Positions 5,282 to 27,983 of a stretch of DNA of 47,712 nt are shown in pieces. This DNA is from Candidatus Azobacteroides sp. GTDB taxonomy: Bacteria > Bacteroidota > Bacteroidia > Bacteroidales > Azobacteroidaceae. The DNA is taken from assembly GCA_009778655.1 (NCBI GenBank), contig WRFZ01000173.1, positions 1-47,712 on the forward strand, in the 5' to 3' direction. The position numbers were made by a program, and so were the translations under genes. How positions within the stretch are numbered: position 1 is the first letter of the stretch; each line of letters starts with the position of its first letter. The notes below the pieces were generated by a model, which saw only the letters and a program-made list of their open reading frames with translations, searched no databases and had not been told where the DNA came from.

Positions 5282-5325
5282 AAAGCGTTTGTTAATTTCT
5301 TATTAACAAGCGCTTTTCTTTGTAT
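5282..5325 (+). terminator. Second hairpin terminator in tandem
   Basis: A 14-bp stem with a single G-U pair (5282-5295 against 5303-5316) and a 7-base loop is followed by TTTCTTTGT. It sits 17 bases after the first hairpin and probably backs it up. Confidence 0.6.
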
Positions 5326-5642: not shown

Positions 5643-8405
5643 ATGGAAAAATTTAACAAAATTGGATTTGTGATGATTTGCCTGCTTGCCTTTTTGAAAG
5701 GACAGGCTTTTGAATCCGCAACAACGACAATAACGTCGTTCCCTATTCTGAAATCCTCTGAAGTCGCTACTTATTCGAATCTTGATACCGCGATTCAGAG
5801 AGAGATTAACGCCAATGCAATGTACAAGGCTTTTGCGGATAAGGCGAAAGAAGAAGGTTACCCGATTATAGCTCGTTTGTTCTCTGTAACGGCGGATGCG
5901 AAAGCCGGACACGCCGAGGCCGAGTGGGCGATTTTACAAAGCATGGGCGCTACCGAAAGACCTGTAGCGGAAATACCGGAAGTAGGAACAACCGAAGAAA
6001 ACCTGCAAGCGGCATTTGCCGGCGAAACGTATGACTACGAAGAAATGTATCCCGAATTTCTGAAAACAGCAGAAGAAGAGGGAATTACGGAAGCTGCGCA
6101 CCTGTTTGACCTGATAATGCAAGCAGGAAAAGTGAATGCGGCAAATTATGATGATGTATTGCAAAATTCGGATAACATAGATTACATTAATGGCAAATAT
6201 GCCGTATTGTATCGCTGTTTAATCTGCGGAGAAATAGTTACCGAACGTCCCGACCAATGTTCGATTTGCAAAGCTCCGGGTAAAACTTTTGCAATGTACA
6301 ACGAGACCTACTATAATCTCTATGCCGCGGTTCAAGGCGAAGTTAACGCTAACGCAATGTACAGAGCCTTTGCCGCTAAAGCTCAAGACGAAGGCTATTC
6401 GGTTACCGCTCATCTTTTCTTGGCAACAGCGGATGCGGAAGCCAAGCATGCCGATGATGAATGGGCGATTCTGCAAAGCATGGGCGCTACGGAAAGGCCC
6501 GAAGCGCAACAACCGAAAGTCGGAACAACCGAGGAAAACCTCAGAGCATCATTTGAGCGTGAAAATTATGAATACACGACTATGTATCGCAATTTCGTGG
6601 AGGTTGCGAAAGCGGAAGGAATGGATGAAGCGGCGCGTCTGCTTACTCTGATAATGCACGCGGAACAAGTGCATTCAAGTAACTACGGCGATATAATATC
6701 AAAGATAGATAATATAAATTATATTAAAACCAAGTACGCAATATTGTTCCGTTGTTTAACTTGCGGGGAAATAGTTACTACACTCCCTAAGCAATGTCCG
6801 ATTTGCGACGCTTCGGGTGAAACTTTTATGATATACAGTGCGACCTACGGAAATCTGTACATTGCAGTTCAAGGCGAAATCAACACGCACGCAATGTACA
6901 AAGCCTTTGCAGCTAAAGCTTTTGAAGAAGGTTATCCGATTATTGCCCGTTTATTTTTGGCAACGGCGGATGCGGAAGCCAAGCATGGCGAAGACGAATG
7001 GGTGATTCTGCAAAGATTGGGCGCTACGGAAAAACCCGTAGCGGAAATACCGGAAGTCGGAACAACAGCCGAGAATCTGAAGAAAGCGTTTGACGGTGAG
7101 AACTATGAATACACGAAAATGTATCGGGATTTCTACCAAATTGCGCATGAAGAAGGAATATCAGATGCGGCATACATATTCAATTTGGCAATGCAGGCGG
7201 AACAGGTACATGCGAGTAATTTCGGCGATGTATTGTTGAATCTGAGTGATATAGATTATATTAACGCCAAGTATGCCGTGTTGCATCGTTGCGTGAAATG
7301 CGGAGAAGTCGTTACGAAAGTTATCAATCGGTGGTGTCCGATTTGCGGCACCGCGACCGAAAGATTCGTGACATACAGCGATACCTACTATAATCTTTAT
7401 ACTGCGCTTCAAATCGAGATCAACGACAACGCCATGTACAAAGCTTTTGCGGATAAAGCGAAAGAAGATGGATATCTTTTTATAGCACAACTGTTTAACG
7501 CAACAGCGGATGCGGATGCCAAACATGCCGATGACGAATGGGAAATTTTGAAAGAGTTGGGCGCAACCGAAAGTCCTGTAGCGGAAATACCGCAAGTCGG
7601 AACAACAGCCGAAAATCTGAAGAAAGCATTTTACGATGAGAGTTATGAATACTCGGAAATGTATCCCGGTTTCTTAATCGTAGCGAAAGCCGAAGAGATA
7701 GCGGATGCGGAACGCATATTCGGTTTTGTGATAAAGGCGGAACAAATACATGCGAGCAACTATGGCGATGCATTGGCAAATCTGAATAATACAGATTACA
7801 TCAGTTCCAAGTATGCGACGTTATACCGTTGTCCCGTTTGTGGAGAGGTCTTCACGACACGTCCCGACCAATGTTCGTGCGGTACTCCGAGTGAAAATTT
7901 CGTGCGATACTGTATTCTTCCGATAATAACGACAGATTTTTTGTGTGACGGGAAAGTGGATGAGGATTACAGCGAAACGCTTGAAGCTATCAGCGATTCG
8001 CCGGTTACTTGGGAAATAAAAAACGGCGCTTTACCCGAAGGACTTGTACTTAATGCGAATACAGGCGTTATTTCCGGTACGCCGACCGAAGCGGGAGATT
8101 TCTGCATTATCGTAACCGCTACGAATAGCGTTGCCTCCGAAGACAGGGAGCTTAACTTTTCGATTGAAATAAGAGGAACCGGAATAGAAAATATTCAACA
8201 GACGGTAACGTTGAATGCACACATACATGGAGGGACATTACGTATCAACGGACTGATCCCCGATGATTTATGGAGTGTTTATACCATATACGGCGACCTT
8301 GTATATCGGAACGTCGCTCATAGCAAACAGGCTGATATAACTTTGCCTGCTCGCGGCGTGTATATTGTTCGATCCGGCAGTAGAACAATAAAAGTGGTGT
8401 ATTAA
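5643..8405 (+). CDS. Exported protein with four tandem rubrerythrin units, Ig-like domain and T9SS-like tail
   Basis: This 920-residue protein starts with a signal peptide (MEKFNKIGFVMICLLAFLKG). Four rubrerythrin units follow, starting near residues 46, 225, 404 and 584 with a period of 179-180. Each has a ferritin-like diiron half (GE..., ExxH, GENYEY, AEQVH motifs) and a rubredoxin-like CxxC...CxxC end. Units 2 and 3 keep all ligand positions: E233, E266, H269, E307, E310, E341, H344 and E412, E445, H448, E486, E489, E520, H523. Unit 1 has K87, G162 and N165 at ligand positions. Unit 4 has D625 and a C744-S-C746 pair lacking a residue. Residues about 757-843 are a He_PIG-type Ig-like domain (LPEGLVLNANTGVISGTP) and 851-920 a T9SS-like tail. 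Rubrerythrins are normally cytoplasmic single-unit peroxide reductases; export and four copies are unusual. Electron donor unknown. Confidence 0.88.
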   Translation: MEKFNKIGFVMICLLAFLKGQAFESATTTITSFPILKSSEVATYSNLDTAIQREINANAMYKAFADKAKEEGYPIIARLFSVTADAKAGHAEAEWAILQSMGATERPVAEIPEVGTTEENLQAAFAGETYDYEEMYPEFLKTAEEEGITEAAHLFDLIMQAGKVNAANYDDVLQNSDNIDYINGKYAVLYRCLICGEIVTERPDQCSICKAPGKTFAMYNETYYNLYAAVQGEVNANAMYRAFAAKAQDEGYSVTAHLFLATADAEAKHADDEWAILQSMGATERPEAQQPKVGTTEENLRASFERENYEYTTMYRNFVEVAKAEGMDEAARLLTLIMHAEQVHSSNYGDIISKIDNINYIKTKYAILFRCLTCGEIVTTLPKQCPICDASGETFMIYSATYGNLYIAVQGEINTHAMYKAFAAKAFEEGYPIIARLFLATADAEAKHGEDEWVILQRLGATEKPVAEIPEVGTTAENLKKAFDGENYEYTKMYRDFYQIAHEEGISDAAYIFNLAMQAEQVHASNFGDVLLNLSDIDYINAKYAVLHRCVKCGEVVTKVINRWCPICGTATERFVTYSDTYYNLYTALQIEINDNAMYKAFADKAKEDGYLFIAQLFNATADADAKHADDEWEILKELGATESPVAEIPQVGTTAENLKKAFYDESYEYSEMYPGFLIVAKAEEIADAERIFGFVIKAEQIHASNYGDALANLNNTDYISSKYATLYRCPVCGEVFTTRPDQCSCGTPSENFVRYCILPIITTDFLCDGKVDEDYSETLEAISDSPVTWEIKNGALPEGLVLNANTGVISGTPTEAGDFCIIVTATNSVASEDRELNFSIEIRGTGIENIQQTVTLNAHIHGGTLRINGLIPDDLWSVYTIYGDLVYRNVAHSKQADITLPARGVYIVRSGSRTIKVVY
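5778..7922 (+). repeat. Four in-gene tandem repeats of about 537-540 bp
   Basis: Repeat units begin near 5778, 6315, 6852 and 7392, one per rubrerythrin module. Long stretches are nearly identical at the DNA level, for example around GCGGATGCGGAAGCCAAGCA in units 2 and 3. This indicates internal duplication that is recent enough to keep codon-level similarity. Confidence 0.85.
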
Positions 8406-8417
8406 TGTGAGTTATGA

Positions 8418-8455
8418 TAAGAGTCGAGAGCTGATTTTTCAGCTCTCGACTCTTA
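8418..8455. terminator. Bidirectional terminator between convergent genes
   Basis: A perfect 17-bp stem (8418-8434 against 8439-8455) encloses a TTTT loop. The plus-strand rubrerythrin gene ends at 8405 and the minus-strand gene ends at 8439, so the hairpin can serve both. Its right arm encodes the last five residues and stop codon of the minus-strand gene. Confidence 0.75.
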
Positions 8456-8900
8456 ACTTTTTATATTCCGGAATCTCATTTACAAAAACATATTCTTTCT
8501 TTTCTTGGTCTATTCGGCAGCAAAAATGTTGAATCCCGTTACTCACGATTAACCATGACACGTGTAACGCAAAATTATAAAAAGTAATCTGATCAAACGT
8601 TTTTTGATTGATCACGGTAGAAGGCGATTTGTATTCGATAATCATCATCGGGTGCAAAAAATCGTCGTATAAAACCGTATCGCATCGTTTTTTTACGTTT
8701 CCCAACGTAATTTCGACTTCATTGGCCATCCGGCCCGAAGGATAACCTTTATATTCAATCAGAAAAGATATGAATTGCTGGCGAACAAATTCTTCCGGCG
8801 TTAAGCGAACAAATTGCTTTCGCAAATGGTCAAAGACATAATCTTTCCCGTTTTGTTTTTTTATTCGTAATTCGGCAACTGGAAGATTCAAATGCTCCAT
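8439..8900 (-). CDS. HsdR N-terminal-like PD-(D/E)XK fold protein
   Basis: This 153-residue protein matches the type I restriction enzyme R N-terminal (HSDR_N) family found as stand-alone proteins in Bacteroidales. It shows LRKQFVRLTPEEFVRQQFI, then a nuclease-fold core with D74 (KRCDTVLYD), E89 and K91 (MMIIEYKSP), followed by TFDQITFYNFAL. The D...ExK set suggests a metal-dependent nuclease fold, but no methylase or specificity subunit is nearby, so this is not a complete restriction system. Its last codons lie inside the bidirectional terminator. A -7 box (TAATTTTG, 8932-8939) precedes it. Confidence 0.8.
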   Translation of the reverse strand: MEHLNLPVAELRIKKQNGKDYVFDHLRKQFVRLTPEEFVRQQFISFLIEYKGYPSGRMANEVEITLGNVKKRCDTVLYDDFLHPMMIIEYKSPSTVINQKTFDQITFYNFALHVSWLIVSNGIQHFCCRIDQEKKEYVFVNEIPEYKKLRVES

Positions 8901-24603: not shown

Positions 24604-26070
24604 TCAACAAGTTGATGAAAGCGCATCTTTCAACGAAATACCCAACGCTTTAGCGACACCTTCGCCGTAAGCGGGATCGGCTTTGTAGCAATTCTTCGTA
24701 TGACGTTGTTTGACGAACAATTCGGAATCACCCATTGCACGGGCCGTATTTTCGAAGAGTACCTGTTGTTGCTTCGGCGACATCAGACGGAACAAGTCGC
24801 CCGGCTGGCTGTAGTAATTTTCGTCGTACTCCCGTTCGTTATAATTGTATGCCTCTCCATGCAATTTCAGCGGCGGTTCTTTAGTTTCGGGCGAGTCCTG
24901 CCATTCTCCGTAACTGTTGGGTTCATACCCCAAAGTCGAACCGTTGTTCCCGTCCGCACGCATCATTCCGTCGCGGTGATAAGCATGAACCGGACAACGC
25001 GGACTGTTTACGGGAATATGCATGTGGTTTACGCCCAGACGATATCGCTGAGCATCTCCGTAAGAAAACAATCGTCCCTGTAACATCTTATCGGGCGAAA
25101 AGCCGATACCGTCAACTATATTCATCGGATCGAAAGCCGCTTGTTCCACTTCCGCAAAATAATTTTCGGGATTCTTGTTGAGTTCCAAAATTCCCACGTC
25201 AATCAACGGAAATTCTTTATGCGACCAGACTTTGGTCAAATCAAACGGATTGATTCGGTAGTTGTTTGCCTGTTCCTCGGTCATCAATTGTATTTTAAAT
25301 TCCCAGCGGGGAAAATCACCTTTTTCAATGGAATTGTACAAATCCCGTTGATGAGATTCCCTGTCTTTGGCAATGATGGCTTCCGCTTCTTGGTCGGTAA
25401 GATTTTTTATTCCTTGTAAGGTTACCAGATGAAATTTCACCCATGTTCTGACATTGTCTTTATTGATGAAACTATACGTGTGGCTCCCGAATCCGTGCAT
25501 GTGACGGTAGGAATAAGGAATACCCCGATCGCTCATCGTAATGGTCACTTGATGCAAAGCTTCCGGCAAAAGCGTCCAGAAATCCCAGTTACTGTTTGCA
25601 CTGTGGAGATTGGTTCGCGGATCGCGTTTAACGACATGATTCAAATCGGGAAACTTGAGCGGATCACGCAGAAAGAACACAGGCGTGTTGTTGCCAACCA
25701 AATCCCAATTACCCGCATCGGTATAAAACTTGATGGCAAAACCTCGAATATCACGTTCCGCATCGGCGGCGCCGCGTTCGCCGGCTACCGTTGAAAAGCG
25801 GACAAAACAATCGGTTTTTTTACCGACTTTTGCAAAAATAGAGGCACGAGTATATTTTGTTATATCGTGTGTTATGGTAAACGTTCCGTATGCGCCGGAA
25901 CCTTTGGCATGCATACGCCGTTCGGGGATTACTTCTCTGTCGAAGTGAGCCAGCTTTTCCAAAAACCAAGGGTCTTGTAAAAGCATCGGGCCGGGTTGCC
26001 CCGCTGTTTGCACATTCTGGTTATCCGAAACCGGACGACCGGAAGCTGTTGTCATTTTTTTCTTTTCCAT
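24604..26070 (-). CDS. katA: Monofunctional haem catalase
   Basis: From the ATG at 26070 the protein has 488 residues, the size of small-subunit catalases. It shows the distal-side motif [20 protein letters not shown] with the catalytic histidine, [19 protein letters not shown], then [12 protein letters not shown]. The haem-ligand motif [14 protein letters not shown] carries the tyrosine ligand. No signal peptide is visible once the start is set at MEKKKMT; a longer ORF from 26139 adds unmatched residues. It disproportionates hydrogen peroxide in the cytoplasm. A short inverted repeat at 26105-26123 upstream could be a redox-regulator site. Confidence 0.95.
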
Positions 26071-26104
26071 CGCTAATTCATTTTTTATTGTTAACTGTAA
26101 TTTG

Positions 26105-26123
26105 TATCGAAATTTTTTCGATA
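26105..26123. promoter_or_regulatory. Inverted repeat upstream of the catalase gene
   Basis: TATCGAAA and its exact inverse TTTCGATA are separated by TTT, 35-53 bases upstream of the catalase start. Place and symmetry fit an oxidative-stress regulator site, but the spacing is not an obvious OxyR match. Confidence 0.35.
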
Positions 26124-26189
26124 GCGTCTGAGTATTCAAATGATTTGTCTTTCAAAACCATGTTATAAAATTTATTCGTTGCAAGAAGG

Positions 26190-27983
26190 TCAGAAAATTA
26201 CCTTTACCGTTCCTTGCTCTGTCCATACGATATACATACCCTGCGGCATATTTAGTTCAGCTGTTGTTATGCCGCTCGCAGCGATGCCTTGATGCACGAG
26301 TATGCCTGTTGCGGTATATACCCGCCACGGTTTGCCTTCGGCGATGCCCGTAATGTGCAGCCCGGTACCGTCTATCCACGCTTTCAGCGAGTTGTCGGAC
26401 TGTATTTTTGGAATGGATGTAAATCCGTTTTTCCCTTCAATTCCACCAAATGCTCGGTCAACGTAAAAGTTTACCAACAGGTCGGGCATCTCTACATAAA
26501 GAAGCAAATTTGTCGCATCGGCGGGAATCGTGTAACCGGAGTTTAAAAGTTCTGTCCATTCTCCTTTTACAGCCGGAGCTTCCGCTACTCCTGCGTAGTA
26601 AGTTGCAGTTCCGACATTATATTGCAGCGTAAGTTTAAAATCGCCTTCTGCGGCGCCATCCGGATACATCGCCATCACACCAAAGCTGTAACTGTTACCC
26701 GGAATAAACGCTTTGCTATTTAATGCGAGCGCCGTACCGTTCCAGTTCGCTGTACGTCCGCTGACAAAAATTGATTTTGTCCCCTCATAAGCATAATCAG
26801 AGGTATTGACAACGTTTGTATTACCCCTGCTTGTCCAAGACTGCGTCGTTCCGTCTTCAAATGTATTGTAATAATAATATCCGTTCGCATCCGGCTCTAC
26901 TTCGGGCGGCGGCGGAGGATAAATTCCGCTTGCAAGAAAGTAAAGCTCGTCATAAGCGGGTTTTCTGTCGCCGTTTGAATCAAAAAGAACCGGATATCTA
27001 TCGCTGCGCCAAGACTGATTGTCTTGAATACCCCATACAACGAAAGCCGTAACGTTATCTTTGTATTCCAGAACTTTCTCCATAATATCTCTGTATTTCT
27101 GTCCTTGAGCGACAAAATCACCCGTACTTGTGGTGATGTCCATTTCCGTAATTTGAATCTCAAGTCCGGTAGATGCGAACCTTGCTACTGCCTGTCCATA
27201 AAGATTAGCGTCGGGATACCCCATGTCTAAATGAGATTGCATACCTATTCCGTCAATAAGGTTTTCTGCTTTGAGTTTCATTGCCAAATTATATATATCG
27301 TTAGTTTTATCTGGCATATACTCATTGTAGTCATTATAAAAAAGTTTACATCCGGTAGGAGCGTACTTTCTTGCATACGTGAATGCGTTTACAATAAATT
27401 GGTCATCGCCGTAAATTAGCGTCCATGGGGATTGTCCGGAAGCGGTACCGGCTTCGCGCAAGCCGCCGCCGTTATTTTTAAAAGCTTCATTAACGACATC
27501 ATAAGCATAAAGCTTTAAATTCGGAAAATCGTTTTTGATGAGGGCGAACATATTCTTTATATAACTTTCCATGCGTTTGTTCATCGTTGGCACATCAACT
27601 AAATCGCCGCCGTCGTTTCTGAAAAACCATGCCGGCGTTTGATTGTGCCACACTAAAGTATGACCGCGCAACGGAATGTTGTTGTCTTCGCAGAATTGGA
27701 GAATCCGTCTCGCTCCCGCGCTTAACTGAACCTTGATATCTTCATCGGAAGAGCCGCTTTGAACCATCGTTTGATCGGGTTTAAGTTCATTTTCAGGGGT
27801 AATGCTGTTAAACTCCCTGAGTACTAAATCCTTCATCTTTTGGTCATTTGAAGTACTACTGTTCAGAATATTGCCGAATTTAAAATCCGTATAAACATCC
27901 TTGAGTCCCTGCACTTCGTCTTGAGCGAAAGCAGGCATAATGCCTACAACCGAGGCTATCAAAAAAAGTTTGTATATTTTCAT
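26190..27983 (-). CDS. GH10 endo-1,4-beta-xylanase with CBM and T9SS-like tail
   Basis: This 597-residue secreted protein has a signal peptide (MKIYKLFLIASVVGIMPAFA). A GH10 barrel spans about 25-355: NSITPENELKPD, LRGHTLVWHNQTP, DVVNEAF with acid/base E166, and IQITEMDI with nucleophile E280, then FVVWGIQDNQSW. After a PPPPPEVEP linker, residues about 370-513 (YYNTFEDGTTQSWTSRG onward) look like a CBM4/9/22-type carbohydrate-binding module. Residues 530-597 form a T9SS-like tail (VYTATGILVHQG, MPQGMYIVWTEQGTVKVIF). It hydrolyses xylan outside the cell or at its surface. It is not in a Sus-type locus and has its own promoter box at 28059-28066. Confidence 0.93.
   Translation of the reverse strand: MKIYKLFLIASVVGIMPAFAQDEVQGLKDVYTDFKFGNILNSSTSNDQKMKDLVLREFNSITPENELKPDQTMVQSGSSDEDIKVQLSAGARRILQFCEDNNIPLRGHTLVWHNQTPAWFFRNDGGDLVDVPTMNKRMESYIKNMFALIKNDFPNLKLYAYDVVNEAFKNNGGGLREAGTASGQSPWTLIYGDDQFIVNAFTYARKYAPTGCKLFYNDYNEYMPDKTNDIYNLAMKLKAENLIDGIGMQSHLDMGYPDANLYGQAVARFASTGLEIQITEMDITTSTGDFVAQGQKYRDIMEKVLEYKDNVTAFVVWGIQDNQSWRSDRYPVLFDSNGDRKPAYDELYFLASGIYPPPPPEVEPDANGYYYYNTFEDGTTQSWTSRGNTNVVNTSDYAYEGTKSIFVSGRTANWNGTALALNSKAFIPGNSYSFGVMAMYPDGAAEGDFKLTLQYNVGTATYYAGVAEAPAVKGEWTELLNSGYTIPADATNLLLYVEMPDLLVNFYVDRAFGGIEGKNGFTSIPKIQSDNSLKAWIDGTGLHITGIAEGKPWRVYTATGILVHQGIAASGITTAELNMPQGMYIVWTEQGTVKVIF

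Follow-up and report, generated by a model that had tools for sequence, protein, structure and literature searches.

The DNA analyzed here, referred to as the window, comprises 47,712 nucleotides of contig WRFZ01000173.1 from a genome of Candidatus Azobacteroides sp. (assembly GCA_009778655.1). At positions 5643 to 8405 of its forward strand lies a gene for a predicted exported protein in which four rubrerythrin modules are followed by an immunoglobulin (Ig)-like domain and a tail resembling the sorting domains of the type IX secretion system (T9SS). The features of this rubrerythrin array are given below, each with the evidence from which it was placed.

5643..8405 (+): coding sequence (CDS) of the exported four-module rubrerythrin array, 920 amino acids (aa), ATG start (open reading frame translation, Pfam)
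5643..5708 (+): N-terminal signal peptide, residues ~1-22, cleavage GQA/FES judged by eye (hydrophobicity)
5778..6314 (+): module 1, residues 46-224, ferritin-like bundle with E53K, E97D, E127G and H130N, four rubredoxin-like cysteines (Cys4) intact (alignment)
6315..6851 (+): module 2, residues 225-403, diiron ligands and Cys4 complete (alignment, AlphaFold2 (AF2) pair model)
6852..7391 (+): module 3, residues 404-583, diiron ligands and Cys4 complete (alignment, AF2 pair model, fold match)
7392..7931 (+): module 4, residues 584-763 (end set by us), E53D, C-x-C (CSC) (alignment)
7959..8162 (+): He_PIG Ig-like domain, residues 773-840 (PF05345, 1.6e-9)
8178..8402 (+): C-terminal T9SS type A-like sorting tail, residues 846-920 (TIGR04183, 16.8 bits, under 23; recurrence in the genus)

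A fourfold repeat of rubrerythrin modules

Both parts of the repeated unit are recognized by Pfam, with four stretches of the protein matching Rubrerythrin (PF02915, 1.2e-81) and four matching RUBY_RBDX (1.7e-15). In the module alignment the first residues of the units are 46, 225, 404 and 584, and the units span 179, 179, 180 and 180 residues. A preliminary description of this locus, made from the sequence alone, had proposed four rubrerythrin/rubredoxin units of 179-180 residues and a He_PIG-type Ig domain in one 920-residue chain and had suggested a domain search; that search matched Rubrerythrin, RUBY_RBDX and He_PIG in the protein, and both proposals are borne out. Pairs of window modules share 53.4-61.5% identity in protein and 67.9-72.0% in DNA, a repeat far beyond chance. 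Synonymous divergence (dS) between them is 0.81-1.99 and nonsynonymous divergence (dN) 0.24-0.33, with a dN/dS of 0.12-0.34 indicating that the modules have been kept by selection. Judged by these rates, the modules were duplicated long ago and have been under purifying selection. On the same dN/dS, and with modules 28-32% apart in DNA, an assembly artefact of the repeat was rejected. The gene has a guanine-cytosine content of 44.7% vs 40.2% for the window. A misbinned foreign contig was considered and rejected, since the tail is common to other genomes of the genus and an OMP_b-brl_3 protein is found among the neighbors. As a matter of annotation, the nigerythrin equivalog NF045783 gives the whole protein 362.3 bits against a cut-off of 340, over four matched stretches; automatic annotation might therefore label the product a nigerythrin, so that the array would go unnoticed.

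Export and probable surface display

The most hydrophobic 12-residue segment of the entire protein is found at residues 7-18 (Kyte-Doolittle 3.0), whereas the N-termini of all 16 cytosolic rubrerythrins used as controls reach at most 0.91, in agreement with the signal peptide proposed earlier. The proposed T9SS-like tail stands in part. On the tail alone the type A profile TIGR04183 scores 16.8 bits, under its cut-off of 23, and the only Pfam match is DUF6383 (15.1 bits, under 23.7). Tail-only matches, defined by a query start at or beyond residue 835 and an end at or beyond 918, number 32 and are spread over 13 genomes in the genus, out of 38 with the window genome counted. Among the 32, C-terminal position is established for a glycoside hydrolase family 10 (GH10) xylanase alone, which is encoded at 26190-27983 of the window and ends in the same tail up to the stop codon. 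The search for secretion machinery covered SprA and PorV, and both are present in the genome (2681 and 419 bits). Because the tail recurs in the genus and SprA and PorV are encoded in the genome, display of the array on the cell surface through the T9SS is likely. 

Two further observations concern this tail. A catalase adjoins the GH10 xylanase, which also carries a carbohydrate-binding module and the array-like sorting tail (window 24604-27983). Open frames of only 78 and 67 residues (G007:C109:7759-7968 and G007:C17:10599-10796) consist nearly entirely of sorting-like tail, with identities of 49 and 52% to the tail of the array.

A family of exported modules in bacteria and archaea

Two peptide patterns taken from the four-module alignment were matched exactly against 84,980 species genomes, a search that would miss diverged relatives, those of other habitats included. 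It gave 12 loci, of which 11 constitute a family. Ten of these are 44-61% identical along most of a module; the eleventh, L047, is a partial locus with a piece of about 55-56 residues at 75% identity; L048 (Gallionellales, 34%) is a distant rubrerythrin outside the family. Beyond the window, the hosts belong to the Bacillota, Coriobacteriia and archaea, and a single Clostridiales genome (G436, isolate Nt197P3bin103) encodes up to four family proteins (L040, L078, L081 and L047). Surveys around the relatives used alignment A4 at E <= 1e-45, a cut-off that hides intermediates. Two of 35 genomes matched in the G436 order and one of 394 in the G438 order; the G439 class gave 3 of 256 and the G442 class 2 of 396. 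Every positive was a locus already in the exact-peptide scan. Around the window organism, the array occurs in one of the 38 genomes of the genus, several of which are incomplete. At family rank 3 of 45 genomes matched (E <= 1e-22), the other two in frames of ~200 residues, and at order rank 5 of 393 did so (E <= 1e-25), with four of these matches lying in frames of 211-226 residues. Members may be missed in these searches, which scored up to 2 candidates per genome in the window order, 13 in the class of G439 and 8 in the class of G442 and the order of G438. One scan of viral contigs was without any relative, and another gave 13 loci at 28-34% identity. Translated searches (tblastn) of plasmids and phages returned, among the matches listed, short rubrerythrin-like places of ~0.3-0.7 kb at 29-37% identity, or He_PIG only (15/34 plasmid and 15/42 phage records); the Roseburia and Paraclostridium records among them hold CDSs of 393 and 686 aa. 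The rarity of the family in these samples and its scatter over distant taxa point to gene transfer, by which the module most likely moved between bacteria and archaea. By sequence comparison the array is thus a member of a family and not a single protein, a point absent from the preliminary description, although the survey of genomes that it suggested is what yields the 11 loci and several arrays with other anchors.

An N-terminal hydrophobic segment is present in 14 of 14 family proteins examined (Kyte-Doolittle 2.46-3.81), and it is almost certain that the array is exported and that it has this family around it. Six of the 14 contain at least two modules: the window protein (four), L037 (two), L040 (four), two proteins of L046 (two and five) and L078 (two); L042 and L047 are clipped by contig ends. 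Their C-termini and additional domains are diverse. L040 carries Dockerin_1 and a cohesin below cut-off, L078 three SLH domains (1.5e-31), L046 a sortase-like TPKTG end (14.5 bits vs a cut-off of 20) and L041 Cu_amine_oxidN1, while InlB-like repeats occur in L047 and L078. In the archaeal L038 and L044, the C-terminal stretch gave no family match above cut-off.

The four window modules form one clade in the module tree (support 98/97), as do the four of L040 (99/96) and the two of L037 (96/94), so that at least three arrays probably multiplied independently, barring gene conversion within chains. The modules of L046 do not resolve, the window clade joins L042 at a support of 50/39, and the tree gives no direction of transfer. 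It contains no cytosolic rubrerythrin rows, its outsiders being L048, on a long branch, and exported Bacteroidales rubrerythrins. L047 was dropped from both tree and A4, L048 was left out of A4, and the L078 modules and L081 (cut off) are in neither. Descent of the window and L040 arrays from one shared four-module ancestor is disfavored by the separate clades, although gene conversion could mimic the pattern. Next to the L040 array lie two other genes of note: an S15 X-Pro peptidase with cohesin and dockerin, which shares the array's kind of C-terminus (L040:679-7128) and with it may form a scaffold-bound set in a termite-gut Clostridiales, and a collagen-like Gly-X-Y repeat protein (L040:7235-8644).

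Metal sites and structure

Ligand positions were transferred by aligning window module 2 with the rubrerythrin of Desulfovibrio vulgaris, whose diiron ligands we take to be E20, E53, H56, E94, E97, E127 and H130. Modules 2 and 3 keep all seven positions and the four cysteines. Module 1 has lost four of the seven (E53K, E97D, E127G, H130N) with its cysteines intact, a loss absent from the preliminary description, and module 4 has E53D and a second cysteine pair that is one residue shorter, so that the pattern CxxC...CxxC of modules 1-3 becomes CxxC...CxC (CSC). Among the 20 non-window modules of A4, all keep the seven diiron positions and 19 the complete Cys4, the remaining one being clipped by a contig end. 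The terminal branch of module 1 in the tree (0.41) is no longer than those of the other window modules (0.41-0.55); module 1 is overall no more diverged, and its diiron site was therefore lost while the rest was kept.

The AF2 model of modules 2 and 3 is confident (predicted local distance difference test (pLDDT) 95, predicted template modeling score 0.88) and its fold matches nigerythrin, on which module 3 superposes over 174 residues at 1.5 A and 35% identity. A model of the four-module stretch made without an alignment was discarded (pLDDT 40.9).

Exported single-module rubrerythrins

Export is not confined to arrays. Among the nearest relatives in the window's order are exported single-module rubrerythrins of three Bacteroidales, two with a lipobox judged by eye (L030, L031) and one with a signal peptide (L033). 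In all three loci, from three families, the gene is directly downstream of one for a DUF2231 membrane protein (L030:845-2046, L031:691-1898, L033:886-2064), a candidate electron donor; no paper in the literature searched contains both DUF2231 and rubrerythrin. On the Chondrocystis plasmid AP018282.1 (L099:2414-4465), three consecutive genes code for an exported, lipoprotein-like rubrerythrin, a Rieske protein that is likewise exported and another rubrerythrin-like protein, this one with a hydrophobic N-terminus. Export was judged by eye, and the Rieske neighbor is a candidate donor in this single-module cyanobacterial system. The existence of such proteins shows that the earlier statement that known rubrerythrins are cytoplasmic was wrong as a generality.

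Habitat

The available part of PMC7024585 assigns the sample codes of 9 of the 11 family loci, equivalent to eight bins, to Neocapritermes taracua, Termes hospes and Embiratermes neotenicus, and classes these three termite hosts as humus feeders. Two further loci carry the codes Cus372 and Jx357, whose origin is not confirmed, one being named Bathycorpusculum termitum. As humus feeders are, in the same text, the source of 302 of 589 metagenome-assembled genomes (PMC7024585), the link of the family to them is suggestive only. In the genus genome G002, two replicons each share 4 kb at full identity with plasmids of Candidatus Azobacteroides pseudotrichonymphae, according to PMC5478533 a symbiont of a termite-gut protist; the window genome therefore shares its genus with a termite symbiont, and we infer a termite origin for the window organism itself. 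Strong variation in pH and oxygen pressure in the termite gut, as stated in the available part of PMC7024585, would fit a defense at the cell surface.

Proposed function and alternative explanations

Taken as a whole, these data are best read as a secreted, cell-surface rubrerythrin array that reduces peroxide or oxygen with a donor to be found, a proposal whose chances we regard as evenly balanced. As to function alone, we consider with moderate confidence that a peroxide/oxygen reductase is most likely, because the conserved diiron and Cys4 positions, together with a nigerythrin fold and the chemistry already established for the family, favor reduction of H2O2, and perhaps O2, outside the cytoplasm. 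The signal peptide would take the protein over the inner membrane and the T9SS over the outer membrane, where the tail would hold it at the surface. The modules would act as nigerythrin-type units, and adjacent modules are predicted from the pair model to pair in-chain like the two subunits of a rubrerythrin dimer, so that electrons would pass from the rubredoxin center of one module to the diiron site of the other. Modules 2, 3 and perhaps 4 would then use their diiron sites to reduce H2O2, perhaps also O2, to water with electrons from some extracellular or envelope reductant. The module family, known so far from three bacterial phyla and archaea, almost all of the termite gut, has most likely been expanded and given its anchors independently in several lineages.

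Several observations weigh against this proposal, and the electron donor is its weak step. Around the array lie histidine-biosynthesis, lipocalin-like, SPOR, HSDR_N, AMP nucleosidase and two-component genes, and no redox partner was recognized among the neighboring genes searched by domain, as the remark that an extracytoplasmic array lacks an obvious electron donor had anticipated. The genome (89.6% complete) also has no match to DUF2231. On both sides the gene is flanked by terminator-like hairpins:

5282..5316 (+): terminator-like hairpin, 15 pairs, upstream of the array gene, with the SPOR-domain gene on its other side (pattern match)
8418..8455 (+): terminator-like hairpin, 17 pairs (8 G-C), directly after the stop codon (pattern match)

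Hairpins of this kind are not more frequent in the region than in shuffled sequence (4 found vs 3.7 expected). With the diiron site of module 1 lost and the rubredoxin site of module 4 altered, the array cannot be wholly catalytic; its presence in a single genome of the genus marks it as accessory; the tail stays under the type A cut-off; and within-chain gene conversion could also cluster the modules of one chain. Among other features of the locus, a stand-alone HSDR_N domain protein of 153 residues (window 8439-8900, reverse strand) is convergent with the array gene, and an Rfam scan of the window gave no match.

A more far-reaching form of the surface-array proposal, which binds it to habitat and which we find rather doubtful as a joint claim, is that termite-gut microbes of three bacterial phyla and the archaea swapped one module, multiplied it independently and fitted it to their own anchors. 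Outside the cell the arrays would work as iron redox shields that can be recharged: reduced gut compounds, namely humic quinols, thiols or Fe(II), would load them where oxygen is absent, and they would be discharged on O2 or H2O2 close to the oxygenated wall. Each module n would pass electrons from its rubredoxin to the diiron site of module n+1, leaving the first diiron and the last rubredoxin partnerless, and these are the two most damaged centers of the window protein (n=1). As a general rule such unused ends were rejected; the other A4 arrays are intact at both ends, and the idea therefore stays with one protein.

Surface iron capture or ferroxidase activity, in which Fe(II) would be bound or oxidized outside the cell for iron supply or against Fenton chemistry without a donor-fed reductase, appears unlikely to us: the rubredoxin-like Cys4, needless for storage, is kept in nearly all modules, and no iron-uptake gene was recognized among the neighboring genes searched. 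It is quite improbable that the protein is instead a periplasmic envelope peroxidase fed by the quinone pool, as the exported singles may be, with a tail that is no working sorting signal. The tail's score and the DUF2231 neighbor of the singles (3/3 loci examined), like the exported Rieske protein adjoining the cyanobacterial rubrerythrin, would suit such an enzyme; they are set against the 32 occurrences of the tail in 13 of 38 genus genomes, one at a xylanase C-terminus, the presence of SprA and PorV, the other surface anchors borne by some relatives in other phyla, and the lack of a DUF2231 match in the genome. A structural or adhesive role, with metal-stabilized helical modules as surface spacers or binders like Ig repeats and catalysis vestigial, is also improbable, since a spacer has no need of the seven ligand positions that 20 of 20 non-window A4 modules keep, even if module 1 has lost four of them at a divergence like that of the others and fusions with He_PIG, InlB-like repeats, SLH and dockerin are usual for surface proteins.

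Rubrerythrin is a standard intracellular defense of anaerobes. Should the surface-array proposal be correct, it would also have a surface-displayed form, arisen in parallel across phyla in one gut habitat and carried across the divide between bacteria and archaea. Two testable questions follow: from where do extracytoplasmic rubrerythrins draw their electrons, for which the DUF2231 and Rieske neighbors are concrete candidates, and do termite-gut anaerobes defend the cell exterior, besides the interior, against oxygen entering the gut?

Comparison with known rubrerythrins

The architecture had been put forward as undescribed, and the titles and abstract openings searched, a scope outside which most subscription papers and bioRxiv preprints fall, gave no description of exported rubrerythrin arrays; the word rubrerythrin is likewise absent from the termite archaea papers searched. 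Among the closest counterparts are the arrays of L037, L040, L046 and L078 (Bacillota, Coriobacteriia), from metagenome-assembled genomes with termite-gut codes, which are exported, multi-module and of the same module subfamily, with the modules of L037, L040 and L046 45-60% identical to window module 2. They differ from the window protein in bearing dockerin, SLH or sortase-like anchors where it has a T9SS-like tail, and where resolved the arrays cluster apart. The exported singles (L030, L031, L033, L099) share export with the window protein through a signal peptide or lipobox and have one ferritin-like domain each. The rubredoxin-like Cys4 is retained in L030, L031 and L033, where it scores under the cut-off of Pfam. 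Unlike the window array, the singles have one module, no surface-sorting tail and a candidate membrane or Rieske partner alongside, and those of the Bacteroidales are 32-35% identical to window module 2 and form a separate clade. The cytosolic [FeFe] hydrogenase-rubrerythrin of Clostridium perfringens resembles the window protein in placing a rubrerythrin module within a larger chain. Reduction of H2O2 with electrons from the fused hydrogenase has been demonstrated for it; a repeat array, export or a surface tail, as in the window protein, are not reported in the available part of that source (PMC11926857). With the nigerythrin and rubrerythrin of Desulfovibrio vulgaris (PDB 1yux, 1yuz, 1b71), the window protein shares the diiron ferritin-like bundle and the C-terminal Cys4, but where those proteins have a single module per chain, the window protein has four, together with export, an Ig-like domain and a sorting-like tail.

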